From a bacterium (GTDB taxonomy: Bacteria > JAHJDO01), in contig JAUWOV010000026.1 of NCBI GenBank assembly GCA_030611945.1, forward strand, positions 1 through 20,604: a stretch of 20,604 bases of DNA, given 5' to 3'. A program made the translations under genes and the position numbers. The first letter of the stretch is position 1. Each line of letters begins with the position of its first letter. Under the pieces are notes generated by a model. It was not told the DNA's origin. It was given only the letters and a program-made list of their open reading frames with translations, and ran no database searches. Shown here piece by piece: positions 3,399-18,994 of this stretch.

Positions 3399-3857
3399 AT
3401 GTATAAATTAACAATTATTCCCCTAGTTTTGTTTCTCTATCAAGCTATTGATATGGTTTTGAGAATTCCAAAAGGTAATTCAAGGATGTTCATTACGTCC
3501 ATTTATATCATTTCTGCTTGTACTCTATTTGTTTTTGTCAGTTTATCATTGCTTCGTGAACACAAACAGAAGTTCAAGTTGACATTTGTTTTATCCAGCG
3601 TTGTTATTGCGCCATGTTTGCTCCTTCCTTTAGTTTATTTAGCTCTTGCCACTCATTTAATTGGTGGTGCTGGTATAGGCACGATGTCTATTATGCTTTA
3701 TTCTCCTATAGCCATGCTTATATTTTTAATAACCATCTGGAATTTTTATAGAAAAACTAAAGATAAGAAAATTCTTGCTTTGCTTTTTTCCGGGATACCA
3801 ATAATAGGTTTTCCTTTTATAAATATGATTCATTTATTTATCTTTGGGCTTTATTAG
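3399..3857 (+). CDS. Unrecognised small integral membrane protein
   Basis: I do not recognise the family. The 152-residue product has about five hydrophobic stretches: roughly 3-20, 30-50, 62-86, 92-115 and 126-150, separated by short basic loops (REHKQK, YRKTKDKK). It looks like a compact polytopic inner-membrane protein with no soluble domain. AAGGAG at 3382-3387 lies 11 bases before the ATG. It sits between ntpK and ntpE, next to a broken toxin-antitoxin locus and a second membrane ORF. It is therefore more likely part of an inserted segment than an ATPase subunit, although an accessory membrane partner cannot be excluded. Confidence 0.6.
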   Translation: MYKLTIIPLVLFLYQAIDMVLRIPKGNSRMFITSIYIISACTLFVFVSLSLLREHKQKFKLTFVLSSVVIAPCLLLPLVYLALATHLIGGAGIGTMSIMLYSPIAMLIFLITIWNFYRKTKDKKILALLFSGIPIIGFPFINMIHLFIFGLY

Positions 3858-3928
3858 CGGAGCATAGATTTGAAAAATTCTATTATTAAGGAAATATAGG
3901 AACGACAATAACAAAAAGAAGACAGTAG

Positions 3929-4288
3929 ATGGAAAATAACGACAAGAAAACTATGGACGAACAACAAAAGAAAAACTATAGAATAATTTTCTGGAGACTG
4001 TTTGGCATAGGATTGCTTTTAAATATTGGTTTGCCTGCTTTAGACCAATCGCCGATTTTATCAAATTTAGAACCTTTATTTCTCATAGGTCCTTTCATCC
4101 TGCTTATCTTTTGGATGAAATACTTTAATGAGGCGTGGAAATTAATAGGTAAAAGATTTGGCTGGATAGTGGGATTGCTAACATTAATCCCACTCGGCGT
4201 GTTCGTAGCAATTGGAATTGCGCATCATTATTTAAAAGGGACAGATTATTGGAGAGGTAAATATAAAACTTTTCATGTGCAAAAATAA
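3929..4288 (+). CDS. Unrecognised three-helix membrane protein
   Basis: I do not recognise the family. The 119-residue product begins with a charged tail of about 18 residues. Three hydrophobic segments follow (about 22-38, 50-64 and 80-98), and it ends in a basic, aromatic tail. It follows the 3399-3857 membrane ORF by 71 bases on the same strand, with no obvious ribosome binding site. A hairpin lies 28 bases downstream. Length, hydrophobicity and codon use look like a genuine gene. No enzymatic motif is visible. Confidence 0.55.
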   Translation: MENNDKKTMDEQQKKNYRIIFWRLFGIGLLLNIGLPALDQSPILSNLEPLFLIGPFILLIFWMKYFNEAWKLIGKRFGWIVGLLTLIPLGVFVAIGIAHHYLKGTDYWRGKYKTFHVQK

Positions 4289-4315: not shown

Positions 4316-4335
4316 GGGTCGGATAAATCCGACCC
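4316..4335. repeat. GGGTCGGAT inverted repeat (hairpin)
   Basis: Nine-base arms GGGTCGGAT and ATCCGACCC are separated by AA and followed after five bases by a short T-run (4341-4345). It could end transcription of the two upstream membrane ORFs. The absence of an immediate T-tract and its resemblance to dispersed intergenic palindromes make a repeat element equally likely. Confidence 0.7.
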
Positions 4336-4410: not shown

Positions 4411-5010
4411 GTGTCTGTAGAAAACATTATAAAAAAAATAGAAGCTGATGCTGAAGGGGAGTGCAAGGTACTGCGGGATAGAGCATCTCGGCAGATTAAA
4501 CAGATACAGGAGCAAGCAAAAAATCAGGCTAAAAAAGAGGAAGAAAGCGTTCTGAAACATGCAAACGAGCAAGCAGAAAAAAACATGAATAAGGCTATTG
4601 TTTCTGCAAATCTTGAATGCAGGATTAAGTCATTAAAGGTTAAGCAGGGCGTAATTTCAGCATGTTTTGAAAAAGCATATAATGAAACACTTAAGCTGCC
4701 TCAATCAGACTATTTAGAATTAATGGAGTTGAAACTGCTGAAATTTGTAGAAACAGGAGATGAAAAGGTAACGTTTGGAGATCTGCACAGAGAAAAGTTC
4801 AATAGCGATTTTTTGAATCAAATAAATAAGAAACTGGTTTCCATGGGGAAAAAGGGAGGGCTTTGTATCTCAAATGCTTCAAGACATCTAAAGTCCGGAT
4901 TCATTCTAATAAAAGGGAAACAAGAGACCAACGCATCCTTAGAACAATTAATTAAGATGCTAAGGCATAAATTACTAATACAAATAAACAACGTTCTCTT
5001 TGGAGAGTAG
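4411..5010 (+). CDS. ntpE: V/A-type ATPase peripheral-stalk subunit E
   Basis: A 199-residue protein with a long N-terminal helix (about 1-85) of Ala/Lys/Glu/Gln coiled coil and a globular C-terminal half with predicted alternating strands and helices. This is the typical layout and length of subunit E, which forms the outer stalk with the H/G subunit and caps the B subunits. Start is GTG at 4411. The family's initial helix (VENIIKKIEADAEGE) begins directly there, but the ribosome binding site is poor. It is separated from ntpK by 1.4 kb of accessory sequence and from ntpC by four metabolic genes, although in the usual ntp order K, E and C are contiguous. Confidence 0.9.
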   Translation: MSVENIIKKIEADAEGECKVLRDRASRQIKQIQEQAKNQAKKEEESVLKHANEQAEKNMNKAIVSANLECRIKSLKVKQGVISACFEKAYNETLKLPQSDYLELMELKLLKFVETGDEKVTFGDLHREKFNSDFLNQINKKLVSMGKKGGLCISNASRHLKSGFILIKGKQETNASLEQLIKMLRHKLLIQINNVLFGE

Positions 5011-5069
5011 GCACACCCAAATCAAGACTGCTTTTCAAAGGTTCGTATGTTAAAAGTTTGGAGGAATAT

Positions 5070-5744
5070 ATGAGTGAGTATTTAAAAAGTGAAGTTTATG
5101 AAGCTAATCTAGCTTTACCTGAAAATGGTTTGGTAGCAGGGACAAGTGGAAATGTCAGCGCTATTAACAAGGCAAGGAATAAAATCTACATAAAGCCAAG
5201 CGGTGTAAGTTATAAAAAATTAAGAAAGCAGGATATTGTCGGAGTTGATTTAAAGGGAAAGGTAGTTGAAGGTGAGCTTAACGCTTCAGTTGATCTGTCT
5301 CATCATCTTTATTTGTATAAGCATCTGCCTGAGATTGGCAGTGTTATTCATACCCACTCTGTTTATGCCACAGCCTTTGCCATGGTCGGCTCATCTATCC
5401 CTGTTTACAGCACTGCGCATGCAGACATTTTTGGGAAAGAGATTCCTTGCGCTCCATATGTAGATAATCAAGGAGAACATATTGGTAAGTCTGTTGTTAA
5501 ATATCGGCAACAAGGTTGCCCTGCTGTGTTACTTGGCAGGCACGGTGTTTTTATTTTTGAAGAAACCGTTGCCAAGGCTATCAAAGCAGCGATTATGCTG
5601 GAGCATGTAGCGCAGGCATCCAAAGAGGCATTGGAACTTGCCCGAATTTTAAGACGGTCTCTAAAACCCTTTTCAAAGAAAGAGGCAAAAAAATGGTATG
5701 ACCGCCATCATGGCGGTTGTTATGGACAAAAAAACAGGAGATAA
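5070..5744 (+). CDS. Class II aldolase/epimerase, AraD (ribulose-5-P 4-epimerase)-like
   Basis: A 224-residue class II aldolase/adducin fold protein. Visible landmarks are TSGNVSA and KPSGVSY near the N-terminus (phosphate/substrate loops), IHTHS with zinc ligands His94 and His96, GRHG with the third ligand His158, and HADIFG with Asp119. A C-terminal CYGQ with Tyr218 is also present. Asp119 and Tyr218 sit like the acid/base pair Asp120/Tyr229 of E. coli L-ribulose-5-phosphate 4-epimerase (231 residues). This favours epimerase over fuculose-phosphate aldolase, though both act on ketose phosphates with bound zinc. The ATG at 5070 is chosen because GGAGG (5060-5064) is five bases upstream. First gene of a four-gene cassette inside the ATPase operon. 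Substrate unknown. Confidence 0.85.
   Translation: MSEYLKSEVYEANLALPENGLVAGTSGNVSAINKARNKIYIKPSGVSYKKLRKQDIVGVDLKGKVVEGELNASVDLSHHLYLYKHLPEIGSVIHTHSVYATAFAMVGSSIPVYSTAHADIFGKEIPCAPYVDNQGEHIGKSVVKYRQQGCPAVLLGRHGVFIFEETVAKAIKAAIMLEHVAQASKEALELARILRRSLKPFSKKEAKKWYDRHHGGCYGQKNRR
5701..5717. repeat. Hairpin ACCGCCA-TCA-TGGCGGT in the 3' end of the araD-like gene
   Basis: A perfect 7-base stem with a 3-base loop, inside codons for DRHHGG and 18 bases upstream of the AGGAG site of the next gene. It could influence coupling or mRNA stability between the two genes, but it may also be a coincidence of codons. Confidence 0.5.
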
Positions 5745-5748
5745 AGAT

Positions 5749-6645
5749 ATGCAGACCATAAGTAAGAGAGAGCTTTATAATTGGTGTTCTATTCCCTATG
5801 ATAAGTTAAGCGAACATTCCCCAAAGATACCTTATGAAATTGCTGCTGATTCAAAAGAAATGGGAGAAAAGATGGCAAGAGAGTTGACTGAAGAGATACG
5901 ATCTCATAATAATAAAAATGAACCTACCCGGGCAATTATACCCTGTGGTCCCTCATGCTGGTATGAACCTTTTGCTCGAATTGTTAATACGGAAAAAATC
6001 AGCCTTAAAAATTTAGTTGTATTTCATATGGATGAATGTCTTGACTGGCAGGGCAACTTATTGCCAAAAAATCATCCATATAATTTCCGTACTGCTATGG
6101 AGCAGGTTTTCTATAACCCTGTTAATTCGGAATTAAGTGTTCCAGAAAAGCAGAGATTCTGGCTTGCTCCAAAGACAATGGAGCGAGTGAAAGAGGAGAT
6201 TTCAAAGGCTCCTATAGATATTACACTCGGCGGTTGGGGCCAGGACGGCCATATTGCCTACAACCAAACCCGCAGGGATCCGTATAGTATTTTATCTATA
6301 GAAGAACTGGCTGAGTCGTCTATAAGGATACAAAATAACAACTGGGATACTGTAATAGCCCTTGCTCAACGCACTTTGGGAACTGCGTATCAGTTTTCTC
6401 CGCCTATGTCTATAACTTTAGGAGTAAAAGAGTGTCTTGGAGCTAAAAAGATAAGGGTTTACAGTGATACGGGCAGCTGGAAACAGACTGCCTTTCGAGT
6501 AGCTCTTTTGGGACATGTGACTACAGAATATCCTCTAACACTCCTTCAAAAACACTCGGATGCCAGAATTACTGCAACAAAGGATACCGCGGCTCATGCT
6601 ATAAGCCTTCATCCTGAATGGGATTTCTTTGGAGGTAAAGATTGA
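5749..6645 (+). CDS. NagB-like sugar-phosphate isomerase/deaminase
   Basis: A 298-residue member of the NagB/RpiA fold family (glucosamine-6-phosphate deaminase/isomerase, 6-phosphogluconolactonase). Landmarks are FHMDE with Asp95 (NagB Asp72 position) and GGWGQDGHIAYNQ with Asp166 and His168 (NagB Asp141/His143). Where NagB has its catalytic Glu148 (GHIAFNE), this protein has Gln173. Either the deaminase chemistry is altered or the substrate differs. The N-terminus is also longer than in NagB. The ATG at 5749 is preferred over in-frame ATGs from 5698 on because AGGAG (5736-5740) lies eight bases upstream and it clears the previous stop. It overlaps the next gene by four bases if TTG is used there. 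Confidence 0.8.
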   Translation: MQTISKRELYNWCSIPYDKLSEHSPKIPYEIAADSKEMGEKMARELTEEIRSHNNKNEPTRAIIPCGPSCWYEPFARIVNTEKISLKNLVVFHMDECLDWQGNLLPKNHPYNFRTAMEQVFYNPVNSELSVPEKQRFWLAPKTMERVKEEISKAPIDITLGGWGQDGHIAYNQTRRDPYSILSIEELAESSIRIQNNNWDTVIALAQRTLGTAYQFSPPMSITLGVKECLGAKKIRVYSDTGSWKQTAFRVALLGHVTTEYPLTLLQKHSDARITATKDTAAHAISLHPEWDFFGGKD

Positions 6646-7727
6646 GTTCAATGACCAATTTTAAAATCATGATTGGCATAGGAGGGATTGGCTCAGGAAT
6701 ATTTTTTGAGTTAAAGGGGAAGCATACCTTAGGACGTAATGAGAGCCGGGCAGGGGTTCTTTTAAACAGACAGGACTTTTGCAAACTCCATATTATTTCT
6801 CATTATGTTTCGGTGTTTCTTAATGCAGAGAAAAAACAATTTAAAGTGCTTCCAATCGGTAAGATTGGGAGTGATTCTACAGGCAATAAATTATTAAAGC
6901 AGATGTCAGAAGCCGGGATAGATATATCTCATGTAGAAAAGGCTAAAAGCACAAACACGCTTTTTTCAGTATGTTTCCAGTATCCTGATAGCTCAGGAGG
7001 TAACATTACTACGGATAATAGCGCCAGTAATTTTGTATCTACTTCTGATGTTAAGCGCACGGAAATCTATTTTAAAAGATTTGCAGGTAAAGGAATTGCC
7101 CTTGCTGTGCCTGAAGCGCCTCTGGCGGCAAGAATCAAATTGCTGGAGACGGCAACTAAATATGATTTTTTCAGGGTCTGTGCTTTTAGTTCATTAGAGG
7201 CAAAGGAATTATTAGAACAGGATATGCTTAGAAACGTTGACCTTTTGGCTATGAATATAGATGAAGCAGAATCAATTATTGGTTACAGATATAATCCTCT
7301 GAAGTTGAAGATATTTTTAAAAAAGATCGAAAATAGATTAACAAGTTTTAATCCTGAAATAAAAATCTCTTTAACTATAGGTTCTAACGGCAGTTATGGG
7401 TATGAACAGGGTGTTTGGCAATGTATTCCATGCGCGCTGGTTAAGCCCATAAGCACAGCCGGAGCAGGAGATGCTCATTTAGCCGGACTTATTATTGCTA
7501 AGGCAATAGGATTGCCTTTTATAGATAAGGAAATAGAGAATAAAAAATCTTTGCCCAATAGTTCTATTGAGAGCGGCATGGCTTTTGCTAATCTATTGGC
7601 TTCTTTGTCTGTTGTCTCGCCTGACACCATAAATTTGAAAGCTAGCCCTAGTTCACTTTATGGACATGGCTTAAAACAAGGAATACAATTTTCTAAAAGA
7701 ATCAAAAAAGCACTGGATATTATTTAA
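6642..7727 (+). CDS. PfkB-family carbohydrate kinase
   Basis: A 361-residue ribokinase/PfkB-type kinase. Seen are an N-terminal glycine-rich segment, GKIGSDSTGNKLLKQM (the family's G-x-D-x-x-G block), and near the C-terminus STAGAGDAHLAGLI with the catalytic base Asp277 and anion-hole glycines. It would transfer phosphate from ATP to a sugar or sugar-phosphate hydroxyl. It is longer than typical members (about 300), with extra sequence around residues 20-50 and at the C-terminus. TTG at 6642 has GGAGG (6631-6635) at ideal spacing. The in-frame ATG at 6651 is the alternative. It overlaps the upstream stop and is two bases from the next ORF frame, so the cassette is one transcript. Substrate unknown. 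Confidence 0.85.
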   Translation: MSSMTNFKIMIGIGGIGSGIFFELKGKHTLGRNESRAGVLLNRQDFCKLHIISHYVSVFLNAEKKQFKVLPIGKIGSDSTGNKLLKQMSEAGIDISHVEKAKSTNTLFSVCFQYPDSSGGNITTDNSASNFVSTSDVKRTEIYFKRFAGKGIALAVPEAPLAARIKLLETATKYDFFRVCAFSSLEAKELLEQDMLRNVDLLAMNIDEAESIIGYRYNPLKLKIFLKKIENRLTSFNPEIKISLTIGSNGSYGYEQGVWQCIPCALVKPISTAGAGDAHLAGLIIAKAIGLPFIDKEIENKKSLPNSSIESGMAFANLLASLSVVSPDTINLKASPSSLYGHGLKQGIQFSKRIKKALDII

Positions 7728-7735
7728 TTGTGGTT

Positions 7736-8773
7736 ATGAAGATAATAGATGCCCATGCTCATGTGTTTCCTCATTATGCTGAAATGGCTGTAAAGGTAAT
7801 GGATAAGGCGGGAATAGATTCAACTGTTACCCTCGAATGGCATGATGGATTTGGAAAGGTACTGAAAGAGCATTTGAAAATATTCAGTAATTTTAAAGGT
7901 CGTTTTAAGGTTTTTGGGAATATCGATATGTCCATGATTAATGAGCCAAATTTTCCCCGTCAGGCAGTGGAAGAATTGGAAAGGAGTGTTGAAGCAGGTA
8001 TGGTCGGCTTAAAGATTTATAAAAATCTTGGGCTTGAACTTAAGGATAGAGATGGAAAGTTTATTCCTATAGATGATGAAAGATTTGACACTATTTGGGA
8101 TAAGGCAGGCGAGTTGGGCATTCCTGTATTAATACATTCAGCAGACCCGTCTTTTTTCTGGCAGCCAATTAATGAAGAAAATTTCTGGGAGGGGGTGCTT
8201 CAAGGAGAATACGCCCATTGGAGTTATTATCGTAAAGGATTCCCGTCACGAGAAGAACTTTTATCTGAACGGAATAACATCATTAGAAGACATCCAAAGA
8301 CAATCTTTATTGGAGCTCATATAGGAAGTTCTGCAGACAATCTTGATTATATAACGCAGGTTTTAGAAAGATATCCAAACTTTTATGTGGATATTTCTGC
8401 AAGGATACCTATTCTGGGGCTTCAAGGATTAAGTCGTAAAAGATCTGTAGAATTTTTTAATAAATATTGCGACCGGATATTATTTGGCACAGATCTAATC
8501 TATGATGATGAACATGTTGCCACTGGCATTCAGTCCCAGACTTTTTTATCCGAAGAAGATATAGATATTTCAGGTCTTACAAATATTGAAGCCTATATAA
8601 AAACATCAGCGGATTTTGTTAAATCGCATATTAATTTTATTTCAACCAGTAAAATACAAACTAATCCTCCTTTCAAGAGAATAAAAGACAGTTACGTCAT
8701 TAAAGGGCTGGGACTATCAGAAGAAATTCAGAAAAAAATATATAATAGAAACATAGAACAAATCTTTAAATGA
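7736..8773 (+). CDS. Amidohydrolase-2 (ACMSD-like) TIM-barrel hydrolase
   Basis: A 345-residue metal-dependent hydrolase of the amidohydrolase superfamily. Barrel ligands are visible in order: DAHAH with His7 and His9, GLKIYK with Lys93, LIHSADP with His134, GAHIG with His195, and FGTDL with Asp253. A lysine with HxH at strand 1 is seen in several amidohydrolase-2 proteins, which include decarboxylases, lactonases and uncharacterised sugar-cluster hydrolases. ATG at 7736 is chosen; an in-frame GTG at 7730 is possible, and neither has a strong ribosome site. Last gene of the carbohydrate cassette and 21 bases before ntpC. A role as lactonase or hydrolase for a sugar acid in the same pathway is conjecture. 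Confidence 0.8.
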   Translation: MKIIDAHAHVFPHYAEMAVKVMDKAGIDSTVTLEWHDGFGKVLKEHLKIFSNFKGRFKVFGNIDMSMINEPNFPRQAVEELERSVEAGMVGLKIYKNLGLELKDRDGKFIPIDDERFDTIWDKAGELGIPVLIHSADPSFFWQPINEENFWEGVLQGEYAHWSYYRKGFPSREELLSERNNIIRRHPKTIFIGAHIGSSADNLDYITQVLERYPNFYVDISARIPILGLQGLSRKRSVEFFNKYCDRILFGTDLIYDDEHVATGIQSQTFLSEEDIDISGLTNIEAYIKTSADFVKSHINFISTSKIQTNPPFKRIKDSYVIKGLGLSEEIQKKIYNRNIEQIFK

Positions 8774-8794
8774 ACGTTACGAATTTCATTAGGA

Positions 8795-9835
8795 ATGGCT
8801 TATATAATGTTTATTGATAAGACCTCATACATGGAATATAATCCAGAATATTTGTTTGCTGTAGGCAAGCTAAGAGTTTATGAAAGAAAGCTCATTAATA
8901 AGGCTGCTCTTACCAAGCTTATCGAATGTAATGACTTTGGGGAACTGGTTTCCATATTAAGCGAGAGAAATTATTCAGATAACATATCCTCTGTAGAAAG
9001 ACCTGAAGATCTAGAAAATCTAATATTTGACGAGATGTCAAACACTATAGGTAAGATAAAAAAACTATCTCATGACAAAGAAGCAACTAATTTGTATTTA
9101 TTCAGGTATGATATACAAAATCTAAAACTCATGATAAAAGCCACGAAAAATTCCGAAGATGTTAATCATGCTTTGCTCTATAGGAGTATAATAGATACTG
9201 AGAATCTTGAGGATTCAATAAAAAAAGAAAATTTTTATGTGTTTTCAGACTCTTTCAGGGATAAAATAAAAACAATATGGCTTGAGGAAGTACAACAAGG
9301 AAATCTCCAGGAGGCAGAAATTCTCTTAGATAAACTATGGCTGGAAACAGGATATTGTCACATGAAAGAGAGAGAACAGATATTCCTGAGGGATTTCTTT
9401 TCTGTATTAATTGACCTATACAACCTTAAGCTGATCTTTAGAACTAAAGTTATGAGTTACGATCAGGAGAGAGTTCGTGAATACATTGCAGAAGGAGGGT
9501 TTATTGATAAGGCCGTCATCTTGAATTCCTGTAATATGAAGCAGGAAGGGATTGTACAATCTTTTCAGTTCTCGGATTATAATAAGATTATTAAACAAGG
9601 TCTTGAATATTTTGAAAGATATAATTCTTTCTGGAAATTTGAGCAGTTATGCAACGATTTTCTGATAGAGTTTGTAGATATTGTAAAATTCCTGGTTGCC
9701 AGTGTGTCAGTCCTCATACGATACCTGGTAATTAAAGAAATTGAGCTTAAAAATCTGAGAGCTATTTTAATCGGGAAAAATAATGGGCTTTCACATGAAC
9801 AAATCAGCCAAAATTTGGGGTGCGCATATGCATAG
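8795..9835 (+). CDS. ntpC: V/A-type ATPase subunit C (rotor socket)
   Basis: A 346-residue, mainly helical soluble protein of the V-ATPase C/AC39 family, the funnel that seats the central stalk on the c ring. The N-terminal YLFAVGKLRVYERKL motif, repeated leucine-rich helices and the length (usual range 320-360) support this, as does its place between E and F. The start is uncertain. ATG 8795 has AGGA directly adjacent, ATG 8807 has it 12 bases away, and ATG 8831 begins right at the conserved Tyr motif. The 3' end overlaps the F subunit start by eight bases. The socket normally holds subunit D, which this locus lacks. Confidence 0.88.
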   Translation: MAYIMFIDKTSYMEYNPEYLFAVGKLRVYERKLINKAALTKLIECNDFGELVSILSERNYSDNISSVERPEDLENLIFDEMSNTIGKIKKLSHDKEATNLYLFRYDIQNLKLMIKATKNSEDVNHALLYRSIIDTENLEDSIKKENFYVFSDSFRDKIKTIWLEEVQQGNLQEAEILLDKLWLETGYCHMKEREQIFLRDFFSVLIDLYNLKLIFRTKVMSYDQERVREYIAEGGFIDKAVILNSCNMKQEGIVQSFQFSDYNKIIKQGLEYFERYNSFWKFEQLCNDFLIEFVDIVKFLVASVSVLIRYLVIKEIELKNLRAILIGKNNGLSHEQISQNLGCAYA

Positions 9836-11905: not shown

Positions 11906-13294
11906 ATGCAAAAAGAATATTTAACTGTTAAAGAGATAGTTGGCCCCCTTATTCTTGTAGAGGATATTGAAGGGGTGAAATATGATGAGCTGATAGAGAT
12001 TGGCTTACCCAATGGAGAAATAAGACAGGGAAAGGTTCTGGAAATTTCAACTGATAAAGCTCTTATACAGGTATTTGAGGGCACAAGCGGGATAGATATA
12101 GCTAAAACCCGCGTGAAATTTTTGGGTAAAGGAATAGAGCTTCCTGTTTCTGAGGACTTGATGGGCAGAGTCTTTGACGGGCTTGGCAAACCAATGGATG
12201 ATGGACCGGAAATAATTCCTGAAAAATATCTGGATATAAACGGCAATCCTATTAATCCATATGCGCGTGATTATCCATCTGAGTTTATTCAAACCGGGAT
12301 ATCTGCAATAGATGGTTTGAACACTCTGGTCAGAGGACAGAAACTACCTATTTTTTCCGGCTCCGGGCTTCCGCATTCCCATGTTGCCGCTCAGATTGCA
12401 AGACAGGCAAAGGTTATTGGCAAAGATGAAAAATTCGCTGTTGTGTTTGCTGCTATTGGCATAACCTTTGAAGAAGCAGATTACTTTATTTCGGATTTCA
12501 GAAGAACAGGGGCTATAGAGAGAACAGTCCTGTTCATAAACCTTGCTGATGACCCTGCTATTGAGAGAATTGCTACTCCGCGTGTTGCGCTTACAGCAGC
12601 AGAATATCTGGCATTTGAGAAAGGTATGCATGTATTGGTTATACTAACAGACATGACAAATTATTGTGAAGCATTACGTTCTGTGTCTGCGGCCAGAAAA
12701 GAAGTTCCAGGCAGAAGAGGATATCCGGGTTATATGTATACTGATCTTGCTTCAATCTATGAAAGAGCTGGCAGAATCAAAAATAAAAAAGGGTCCATTA
12801 CGCAGATCCCTATTCTGACCATGCCTGATGATGACAAAACACATCCTATACCGGACTTGACAGGTTATATTACAGAGGGGCAAATTATACTGAGTAGAAG
12901 TCTTCACAAAAAGGGAACATCCCCCCCCATTGACGTTCTTCCATCACTCTCAAGATTGAAGGATAAAGGGATTGGCAAGGAGAAAACCAGAGAAGACCAT
13001 GCTGATGTCTTTAATCAGCTTTTTGCTGCTTATGCAACAGGTAAAGAAGCGCAGGAACTTGCAATTATTCTCGGAGAGTCTGCTTTGAGTGATATAGATA
13101 AAATATACTTCAAGTTCTCAGACGAGTTTGAAAAACGCTATGTGGGTCAGGGATACGACGAGAATAGAACCATAGCCCAAACACTTGACTTGGGATGGGA
13201 GCTTCTTTCAATGCTGCCAAAATCGGAGTTAAAAAGAATAAGACCTGAATATATAGAGAAATATCTCAAGAGTAAATCCTATGCGTTGGACTGA
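11906..13294 (+). CDS. ntpB: V/A-type ATPase non-catalytic subunit B
   Basis: A 462-residue regulatory head subunit of normal length. It has the degenerate nucleotide loop [14 protein letters not shown] in place of Walker A, the family block [14 protein letters not shown], and PSLSRL with Arg350, the same number as the arginine finger I recall for E. hirae NtpB, which completes the catalytic site of A. It starts on the base after the ntpA stop. An eight-C homopolymer (12921-12928) sits in the codons for SPPI just before PSLSRL. The 3' end overlaps proS by 14 bases, where ntpD would be expected. Confidence 0.98.
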
Positions 13295-14525
13295 GTCTCT
13301 TATAAATACTCTGTGGCAAGCGCCATCTGAGGCGGAAATTTCGTCTCATAAATTAATGCTCCGCGCCGGGCTTGTCAAGAAGCTCGCTGCAGGCATATAC
13401 ATCTTTATGCCTCTGGGACTCAAAGTATTACGCAAAATAGAAAATATTGTGCGAGAAGAAATGGACGCCTCCGGAGCTTTAGAACTTCTGATGCCGACTC
13501 TGCAGCCTGAGCAGTTATGGCAGGAGACAGGAAGATGGGATAAGATGGGTAAGGAGATGATGAAAATTCAAGATCGGCACAAGAGACAATTTGGTCTTGG
13601 TCCAACACATGAAGAGATTGTGACGGATGTTATTCGCAAAGAGGTTAAATCATATAAGCAGCTGCCTGTCACACTCTATCAGATTCAAACAAAATTCAGA
13701 GATGAAATAAGACCGCGATTTGGAGTTATCAGAGCCAGAGAATTTACCATGAAAGATGCATATAGCTTTGATAGAGATATTGATGGATTAAATAAAAACT
13801 ACAAGAAAATGCGTGAGGCTTACTGCAAAATCTTTGACAGATGCGCGCTGAAATATCAAATTGTTGAAGCGGAATCAGGTATTATGGGAGGCGATGTATC
13901 TCACGAATTTATGGCTTTAGCTGATTCAGGAGAAGATACAATTGTTCTGTGTCCGTCCTGTGGATATAGCGCAAGTATGGAAAAAGCAGAAGGAGACAAA
14001 TGTCCCAAATGCGCCAGTCGTATGAAAATTAAGAAAGGAATAGAACTCGGGCATATATTTAAACTTGGCACTAAATACAGCGAGTCTATGGGAGCAGAAT
14101 TTCTTGACAAAGACGGCAAGAAAAAGACAATTGTAATGGGATGTTATGGAATTGGGATATCCAGAATTATTGCAGCGGTTATAGAACAAAATAACGATGA
14201 AAATGGAATAATATGGCCAAAATCAATAGCTCCATATCAGGTAGAGATTTTGCCTGTAAATGTTAATGACAACGAGACAATGCAGATAGCAGAAAATCTA
14301 TATAAAAATTTTTTATCAGAGAGAATAGAGGTTATTATTGATGATAGGAATGAACGCCCGGGAATAAAATTCAAAGATGCAGATTTAATTGGCATACCAA
14401 TCAGAATCACAATTAGTTCACAAAAAGCAAAAGACAATATTGTGGAAATTCATAAAAGAGACACAGGCGAGAATAAACTAGTTAAGATAGATGACCTGTT
14501 AGAGAATTTAAGAATCTACCTATAA
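13281..14525 (+). CDS. proS: Prolyl-tRNA synthetase, short type lacking the INS editing domain
   Basis: A 414-residue class II synthetase that charges tRNA-Pro. Class II motifs are seen in order: motif 1 near [16 protein letters not shown], motif 2 [20 protein letters not shown], motif 3 [14 protein letters not shown], then an anticodon-binding domain. The approximately 180-residue Ala-tRNA-Pro editing insertion, which in E. coli begins near residue 224, is missing. In its place are about 25 residues with two CxxC pairs (Cys224/Cys227, Cys241/Cys244), a likely zinc knuckle. Long ProRS is about 570 residues. It overlaps ntpB by 14 bases in a different frame, so it is cotranscribed with the ATPase. 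No terminator is visible before rpmH. Confidence 0.95.
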
Positions 14526-18482: not shown

Positions 18483-18512
18483 TTGACAATTGGTATCTTT
18501 TTGGTATATAAA
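18483..18512 (+). promoter_or_regulatory. Promoter of brnTA with possible BrnA operator
   Basis: A perfect TTGACA (18483-18488) is followed by TATATA (18505-18510, spacer 16) or TATAAA (18507-18512, spacer 18). Transcription would start at about 18517-18520, on the brnT ATG at 18520, so the mRNA would be leaderless or nearly so. The inverted repeat ATATA-AAG-TATAT (18506-18518) overlaps the -10 and start site and is a plausible binding site for the antitoxin. Confidence 0.75.
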
Positions 18513-18519
18513 GTATATT

Positions 18520-18780
18520 ATGGAATTTGAGTTTGATCCTAGAAAGAGCGAAATCAATAAGAAGAAACATGGTATTGACTTTATTGAAGCACAGTTATTG
18601 TGGGATGATATTGACTTGATTGAAATTCCGGCAAGAACTAGTGATGAACCAAGATACTTGGTAATTGGCACGATTTCCGGAAAGCATTGGTCAGGAGTTA
18701 TTACATATCGTGGCGAGAAGACAAGGATTATTTCAATAAGACAATCCAGAAAAGAGGAGGTTGAAATATATGAAAGCTAG
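18520..18780 (+). CDS. brnT: BrnT-family ribonuclease toxin
   Basis: An 86-residue protein with the BrnT pattern: FEFDPRKSEINKKKHGIDF at the N-terminus (F-x-D-x-x-K-x-x-x-N-x-x-KHG), EPRYLVIGTISG, then TRIISIRQSRKEEVEIYE (R-x-IS-x-R-x-x-x-x-E-x-x-x-Y). This is a RelE-fold ribonuclease that stops translation. The ATG at 18520 starts directly on the conserved motif. It overlaps brnA by 11 bases in the toxin-first order usual for brnTA. The reading frame and the recognisable signature blocks are intact, so it may be active. Confidence 0.92.
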   Translation: MEFEFDPRKSEINKKKHGIDFIEAQLLWDDIDLIEIPARTSDEPRYLVIGTISGKHWSGVITYRGEKTRIISIRQSRKEEVEIYES

Positions 18781-18994
18781 AGAGTTTGATAGAAAGTTTG
18801 ATGAAGGGAATAACATTTCTAAGCATCTGGATCTCACAAAGGCGAAAAGGCTTGAGCAAGATCAGAAAAGGGTCAATGTAGACTTTCCTATTTGGATGAT
18901 TCACTCATTGGATAAGGAAGCAAAGCGTCTGGGCGTACCTCGTCAATCCATTATCAAGGTATTGCTGTCAGAGCGATTAGGGAAAGCAGTCTAA
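18770..18994 (+). CDS. brnA: BrnA-family antitoxin (ribbon-helix-helix)
   Basis: A 74-residue CopG-like protein: a charged N-terminal toxin-binding segment, then a ribbon (KRVNVDFPIWMIHSLDKEA) and helix-helix (KRLGVPRQSIIKVLLSERL) DNA-binding fold. It neutralises BrnT and normally represses the shared promoter. ATG 18770 is chosen, since GAGGAGG (18754-18760) lies nine bases upstream. The TTG at 18761 is in frame but too close. The strong internal ribosome site contrasts with the leaderless toxin and would favour antitoxin excess. A hairpin follows six bases after the stop. Confidence 0.9.
   Translation: MKAREFDRKFDEGNNISKHLDLTKAKRLEQDQKRVNVDFPIWMIHSLDKEAKRLGVPRQSIIKVLLSERLGKAV

Follow-up and report, generated by a model that had tools for sequence, protein, structure and literature searches.

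Organization of the gene cassette

The locus described here raises the question of why four genes of apparent sugar metabolism are found inside a rotary ATPase operon, and whether they belong to one pathway. The window, i.e. the whole 20,604-nucleotide stretch of bacterial DNA analysed, carries ATPase subunit genes arranged as H, I, K, E, C, F, A, B. Open reading frames and family profiles confirmed the first-pass annotation in that the E–C interval holds four genes on the same strand, encoding AraD-like, NagB-like, PfkB and Amidohydro_2 proteins, with members of the vATP-synt_E and vATP-synt_AC39 families as flanks. The features are:

4411–5010, + strand: ATPase subunit E (family profile, comparison with relatives); stop from an altered CAG codon
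5012–8802, + strand: inserted segment (ancestral E/C junction CAGCAGG/TATAATG in relatives; junctions compared side by side)
5070–5744, + strand: AraD-like ketopentose-5-phosphate 4-epimerase (Aldolase_II, Pfam E-value 1.2e-48)
5749–6645, + strand: predicted NagB-like sugar-phosphate isomerase of a distinct subfamily (profiles, alignment, fold)
6642–7727, + strand: PfkB-family kinase (Pfam E-value 5.3e-19; ribokinases closest by profile)
7730–8773, + strand: Amidohydro_2 metal-dependent hydrolase (Pfam E-value 1.3e-20)
8807–9835, + strand: ATPase subunit C (start set by comparison; the open reading frame call starts at 8795)

The close packing reported earlier holds for the downstream genes, the annotated pfkB start and the nagB stop sharing 4 bases and the amidohydrolase gene (amh) beginning 2 bases past pfkB. 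The overlap of araD with nagB, in contrast, is an effect of start calling, as it arises only from an upstream nagB start in the same frame; the nagB start is most likely ATG 5749. The araD gene starts at ATG 5070 or TTG 5058, and comparison with the genus-mates makes 8807, rather than 8795, the most likely start of subunit C. With 59 bases between E and araD and 33 bases between amh and C, co-transcription of the cassette with the ATPase genes is plausible. Elsewhere in the window, a class II tRNA synthetase gene (ProRS-like, 414 aa; 13281–14525) overlaps the end of B, and a BrnT toxin and CopG-type antitoxin pair is located at 18490–18994. Subunit D is not next to B and is encoded on another contig of the genome (G000:C36:5412–5981).

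Insertion at the E/C junction

The set searched for relatives comprised five species of one genus, namely that of the window and four genus-mates. In all four genus-mates, whose C subunits are 81–86% identical to that of the window, the genes for E and C are directly joined. Their junction reads CAGCAGG (or CAACAGG, CAGCAAG), followed at once by TATAATG, whereas the window has GAGTAGG at 5005–5011 and TATAATG at 8803–8809. Comparison of these letters therefore indicates that about 3,791 bases (5012–8802) were inserted and that no ATPase sequence was lost. A base change in subunit E of the window brings the stop codon two codons earlier than in the relatives. Among the four genus-mates, neither a NagB-like orthologue (remaining matches at most 33% identical) nor an amidohydrolase orthologue was found, although gene absence carries less weight for one of them, the assembly of which is 62% complete. 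Inspection of the insert borders by eye revealed neither a target-site duplication nor a mobile-element gene.

The nagB–pfkB pair in other genomes

A homologue scan with one genome per species yielded 80 loci from many phyla, with NagB-like proteins 57–70% identical to that of the window; one of these loci, L036, is from the cultured Chryseolinea serpens. In 71 of them pfkB is directly downstream of nagB, and at six (L012, L013, L027, L035, L046, L055) pfkB is followed by an orthologue of the amidohydrolase (48–54% identical in the alignment); L027 is the sole locus among the 80 with all four gene types. In the trees of both the NagB-like and the PfkB proteins the window is placed beside the same Glassbacteria genome (SH-aLRT 95 and 99, respectively), as would be the case if the two genes moved as a unit. 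Per genome the family is scarce, being present in 2 and 3 of 395 genomes in the two phyla sampled, so that a further phylum contributed few new loci. The gene set thus recurs outside ATPase operons and is not a chance assembly; the chance insertion that the first-pass annotation had considered suits the location of the cassette, but not its gene content.

The linkage to araD is less frequent, the gene not being nearby at most of the 80 loci. It is found immediately upstream of nagB at L004, L054, L059, L066 and L174, within three genes of nagB at L065, L068 and L079, and downstream at L027. By an informal estimate, assuming that a genome of several megabases has a single AraD gene or a few, some 0.1 to 0.3 such linkages would be expected by chance among 80 loci. 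The linked AraD proteins occur in several phyla and fall into two kinds, distinguished by the presence or absence of an internal segment, which suggests repeated recruitment; all of them retain the epimerase Asp and Tyr.

The further neighbours of the pair are diverse and include genes for FucI-like isomerase, LacI, GH43, GH36-like, GH38 and pectinase-like proteins, and at some loci adjoining aldose 1-epimerase genes; the glycosidases near the pair point to no single sugar. Near nagB–pfkB, 29 of the 80 loci (e.g. L012:7042–7389 and L059:11989–12300), among them all six amidohydrolase loci, also encode a conserved protein of about 103 aa, which is missing from the cassette of the window and gave no Pfam or NCBIfam match. 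No description of the NagB-like/PfkB pair or of the four-gene set was found in the open-access literature; the pair is apparently a widely conserved, uncharacterised and undescribed combination made of known enzyme families.

Position of the cassette in the ATPase operon

The cassette is not the only insert in this operon. In the K–E interval of the window two membrane open reading frames without a Pfam match are inserted (3399–4288), and a hairpin with a T-rich tail follows them at 4316–4335. Among the genus-mate loci with inserts (L114, L115, L116), genome G001 carries a HEPN/nucleotidyltransferase pair and a small open reading frame in its K–E interval, G003 a TPR protein in its A–B interval, and G004, in its A–B interval, a HepT/nucleotidyltransferase pair together with a weak DUF3592 match. 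The cassette and these inserts have no function in common, and within the genus the operon seems to have served repeatedly as a landing site.

These observations bear on the suggestion, made in the first-pass annotation, that sugar catabolism is tied here to membrane energisation, the cassette being retained in the operon by joint regulation of sugar catabolism and ion pumping. The common strand, the short gaps on either side and the failure to find a promoter-like site on the + strand at 4900–5070 would agree with such coupling; however, the cassette is missing from the four genus-mates, unrelated inserts share the operon, and none of the 80 loci with homologues of the pair has an ATPase subunit gene nearby. 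We therefore regard coupling as very improbable; the position of the cassette is best read as opportunistic, and the cassette would have no functional connection to the ATPase. Unrelated inserts in one conserved operon show that conclusions on function drawn from operon position can go astray. Given the absence of the cassette from four genus-mates, its exact borders and the presence of the module elsewhere, an insertion at the species level placed a pre-existing sugar-catabolic module, most likely acting as kinase, isomerase and epimerase, into the ancestral H-I-K-E-C-F-A-B operon; taken as a whole, together with the pathway proposed below, this account is the leading candidate, held with less than even confidence.

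Sequence and structural features of the encoded proteins

The AraD-like protein scored best with NCBIfam NF005123 (225.6 bits, under the cut-off of 251) and reached 181.4 bits with TIGR00760, under the curated cut-off of 389.1. Its residues Asp119 and Tyr218 align with Asp120 and Tyr229 of E. coli AraD, which we take to be the epimerase residues.

The NagB-like protein, with glucosamine-6-phosphate deaminase as its nearest relative in both sequence and fold, remained below the family thresholds (Pfam 22.5 under 27 bits; TIGR00502 71.3 bits against a cut-off of 236.9). Its predicted model matched the NagB fold with TM-scores of up to 0.73 (normalized to the query) and 0.88 (to the target). Asp95, Asp166 and His168 are equivalent to Asp72, Asp141 and His143 of NagB (E. 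coli numbering), and the equivalents of the phosphate-binding Arg172 and Lys208 are also retained. At the position of NagB Glu148, however, Gln173 is found, which is invariant among 45 aligned members, and the PTGGTP loop of NagB is replaced by PCGPSCW. A separate locus of the same genome (L120, G000:C32, 3455–6739) encodes in a row a PIG-L deacetylase, a divergent NagB-like protein with an altered D-G-H catalytic motif and a xylulokinase; NagB-like homologues similar in size to that divergent protein are present in three genus-mates.

The kinase clearly belongs to the PfkB family (Pfam 69.1 bits, gathering score 25.8 bits). Its GAGD motif is positioned at residues 274–277, with the G and D invariant among the aligned homologues. 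Ribokinases ranked first in a PDB profile search, although the protein stays under the ribokinase family cut-off.

The amidohydrolase scored 74.7 bits with the Pfam Amidohydro_2 profile (gathering score 26.4 bits) and displays the metal-ligand pattern of HxH, two further histidines and an aspartate. Across 13 homologues, His9, His11, His136 and His197 are conserved throughout, whereas Asp255 is shared by most. The structural model, built from seven sequences (mean pLDDT 79), gave weak fold matches to ACMSD and related hydrolases, with less than 20% identity to any solved structure.

Proposed pathway and alternative substrates

The first-pass annotation had proposed a complete route from hydrolase or lactonase through kinase and isomerase to C4 epimerisation or aldol cleavage. 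With both epimerase residues retained in the AraD-like protein, a route from kinase via isomerase to C4 epimerase stands as the best reading, whereas a hydrolase or lactonase as the first step is a guess and the amidohydrolase would be accessory. The ribokinase-like PfkB protein would phosphorylate an L-aldopentose at O5, with L-arabinose and L-ribose as candidates; the NagB-like enzyme would convert the aldose-5-phosphate to L-ribulose-5-phosphate; and the AraD-like enzyme would epimerise the latter at C4 to D-xylulose-5-phosphate, to be passed on to transketolase. Such an order would reverse the usual sequence of AraA followed by AraB. A transketolase is encoded in the same genome, in which AraA_N was not found; both observations speak for this route, as do the aldose 1-epimerase genes adjoining the pair at some loci.

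Contig C35 of this genome encodes a ribulokinase above curated cut-offs and, at the contig end, a FucI-fold-like isomerase, assigned by eye and without an NCBIfam match; a conventional route to L-ribulose-5-phosphate therefore probably exists. The two genes belong to a group (L176, G000:C35, 9531–14848) that also includes a LacI regulator and a DUF2961/GH172-like protein (by eye), and the contig ends without an araD seen beside the ribulokinase, so that the cassette AraD may serve this route also or instead. A reading of the pair as a strict replacement of AraAB is disfavoured by the ribulokinase of this genome and by the complete araABD sets carried by several other hosts of the pair.

The main rival substrate is an amino sugar. 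In that case the amidohydrolase would deacetylate it, PfkB phosphorylate it and the NagB-like enzyme deaminate and isomerise it, e.g. galactosamine-6-phosphate to tagatose-6-phosphate, before C4 epimerisation of the ketohexose-6-phosphate by the AraD-like enzyme. The kinship of the NagB-like protein to glucosamine-6-phosphate deaminase points in this direction, as do LmbE-type proteins encoded after pfkB (L008, L015, L043, L049, L074, L076), NagA-like genes near the pair (L016, L017, L072, L080) and GH20 in two neighbour sets. However, the replacement of NagB Glu148 by Gln in all aligned members, the proximity of PfkB to ribokinases and the ketopentose-5-phosphate 4-epimerase residues kept by the AraD-type enzymes speak against it, and we know of no deacetylase group among Amidohydro_2 proteins; an amino sugar is accordingly judged unlikely. 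The pair might also act on a hexose, a deoxysugar or a sugar of the L-lyxose type, araD being linked to it only through a shared pentose phosphate outlet and the cassette AraD mainly serving the C35 ribulokinase. This would fit the widely varying neighbours of the pair and a ribulokinase without adjoining araD, but the repeated, independent and direct linkage of two AraD kinds to nagB argues for a closer relation, and such a substrate, if conceivable, appears rather doubtful. The furthest-reaching form of our proposal, that the widespread pair constitutes an undescribed L-aldopentose route in which phosphorylation comes first and entry is via AraD, combined with the ATPase operon as a recurrent landing site, is likewise put forward tentatively and with low confidence.

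No assigned function was found for this NagB-like family, which is nearly always accompanied by one kinase. Establishing its substrate would correct the annotations that name it glucosamine-6-phosphate deaminase, and a pentose route whose steps run in reversed order might come to light.

Comparison with known systems

The cassette resembles the L-arabinose pathway of AraA, AraB and AraD in ending with an AraD-type 4-epimerase with both catalytic residues, but has PfkB and NagB-like proteins in place of AraA and an FGGY-type kinase. The D-allose pathway, in which the kinase AlsK is followed by an aldose-phosphate isomerase and an epimerase, offers the same logic as that proposed here (phosphorylate the aldose, isomerise, epimerise); its isomerase and epimerase are from families unrelated to those of the cassette, and the epimerisation is at C3 instead of C4. 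With regard to the individual enzymes, the NagB-like protein shares with glucosamine-6-phosphate deaminase the fold, the Asp/Asp/His catalytic residues and the phosphate-binding Arg and Lys, and is set apart from it by the Gln substitution, the altered loop and the sub-cut-off family scores. The kinase is like RbsK in its best PDB profile matches and GAGD motif, while its N-terminal GGIGSG..TLGRNESR is not ribokinase-like and its ribokinase score is below the cut-off. The amidohydrolase, finally, despite its low identity to solved structures, shares fold and metal-ligand pattern with the ACMSD-like amidohydrolases.
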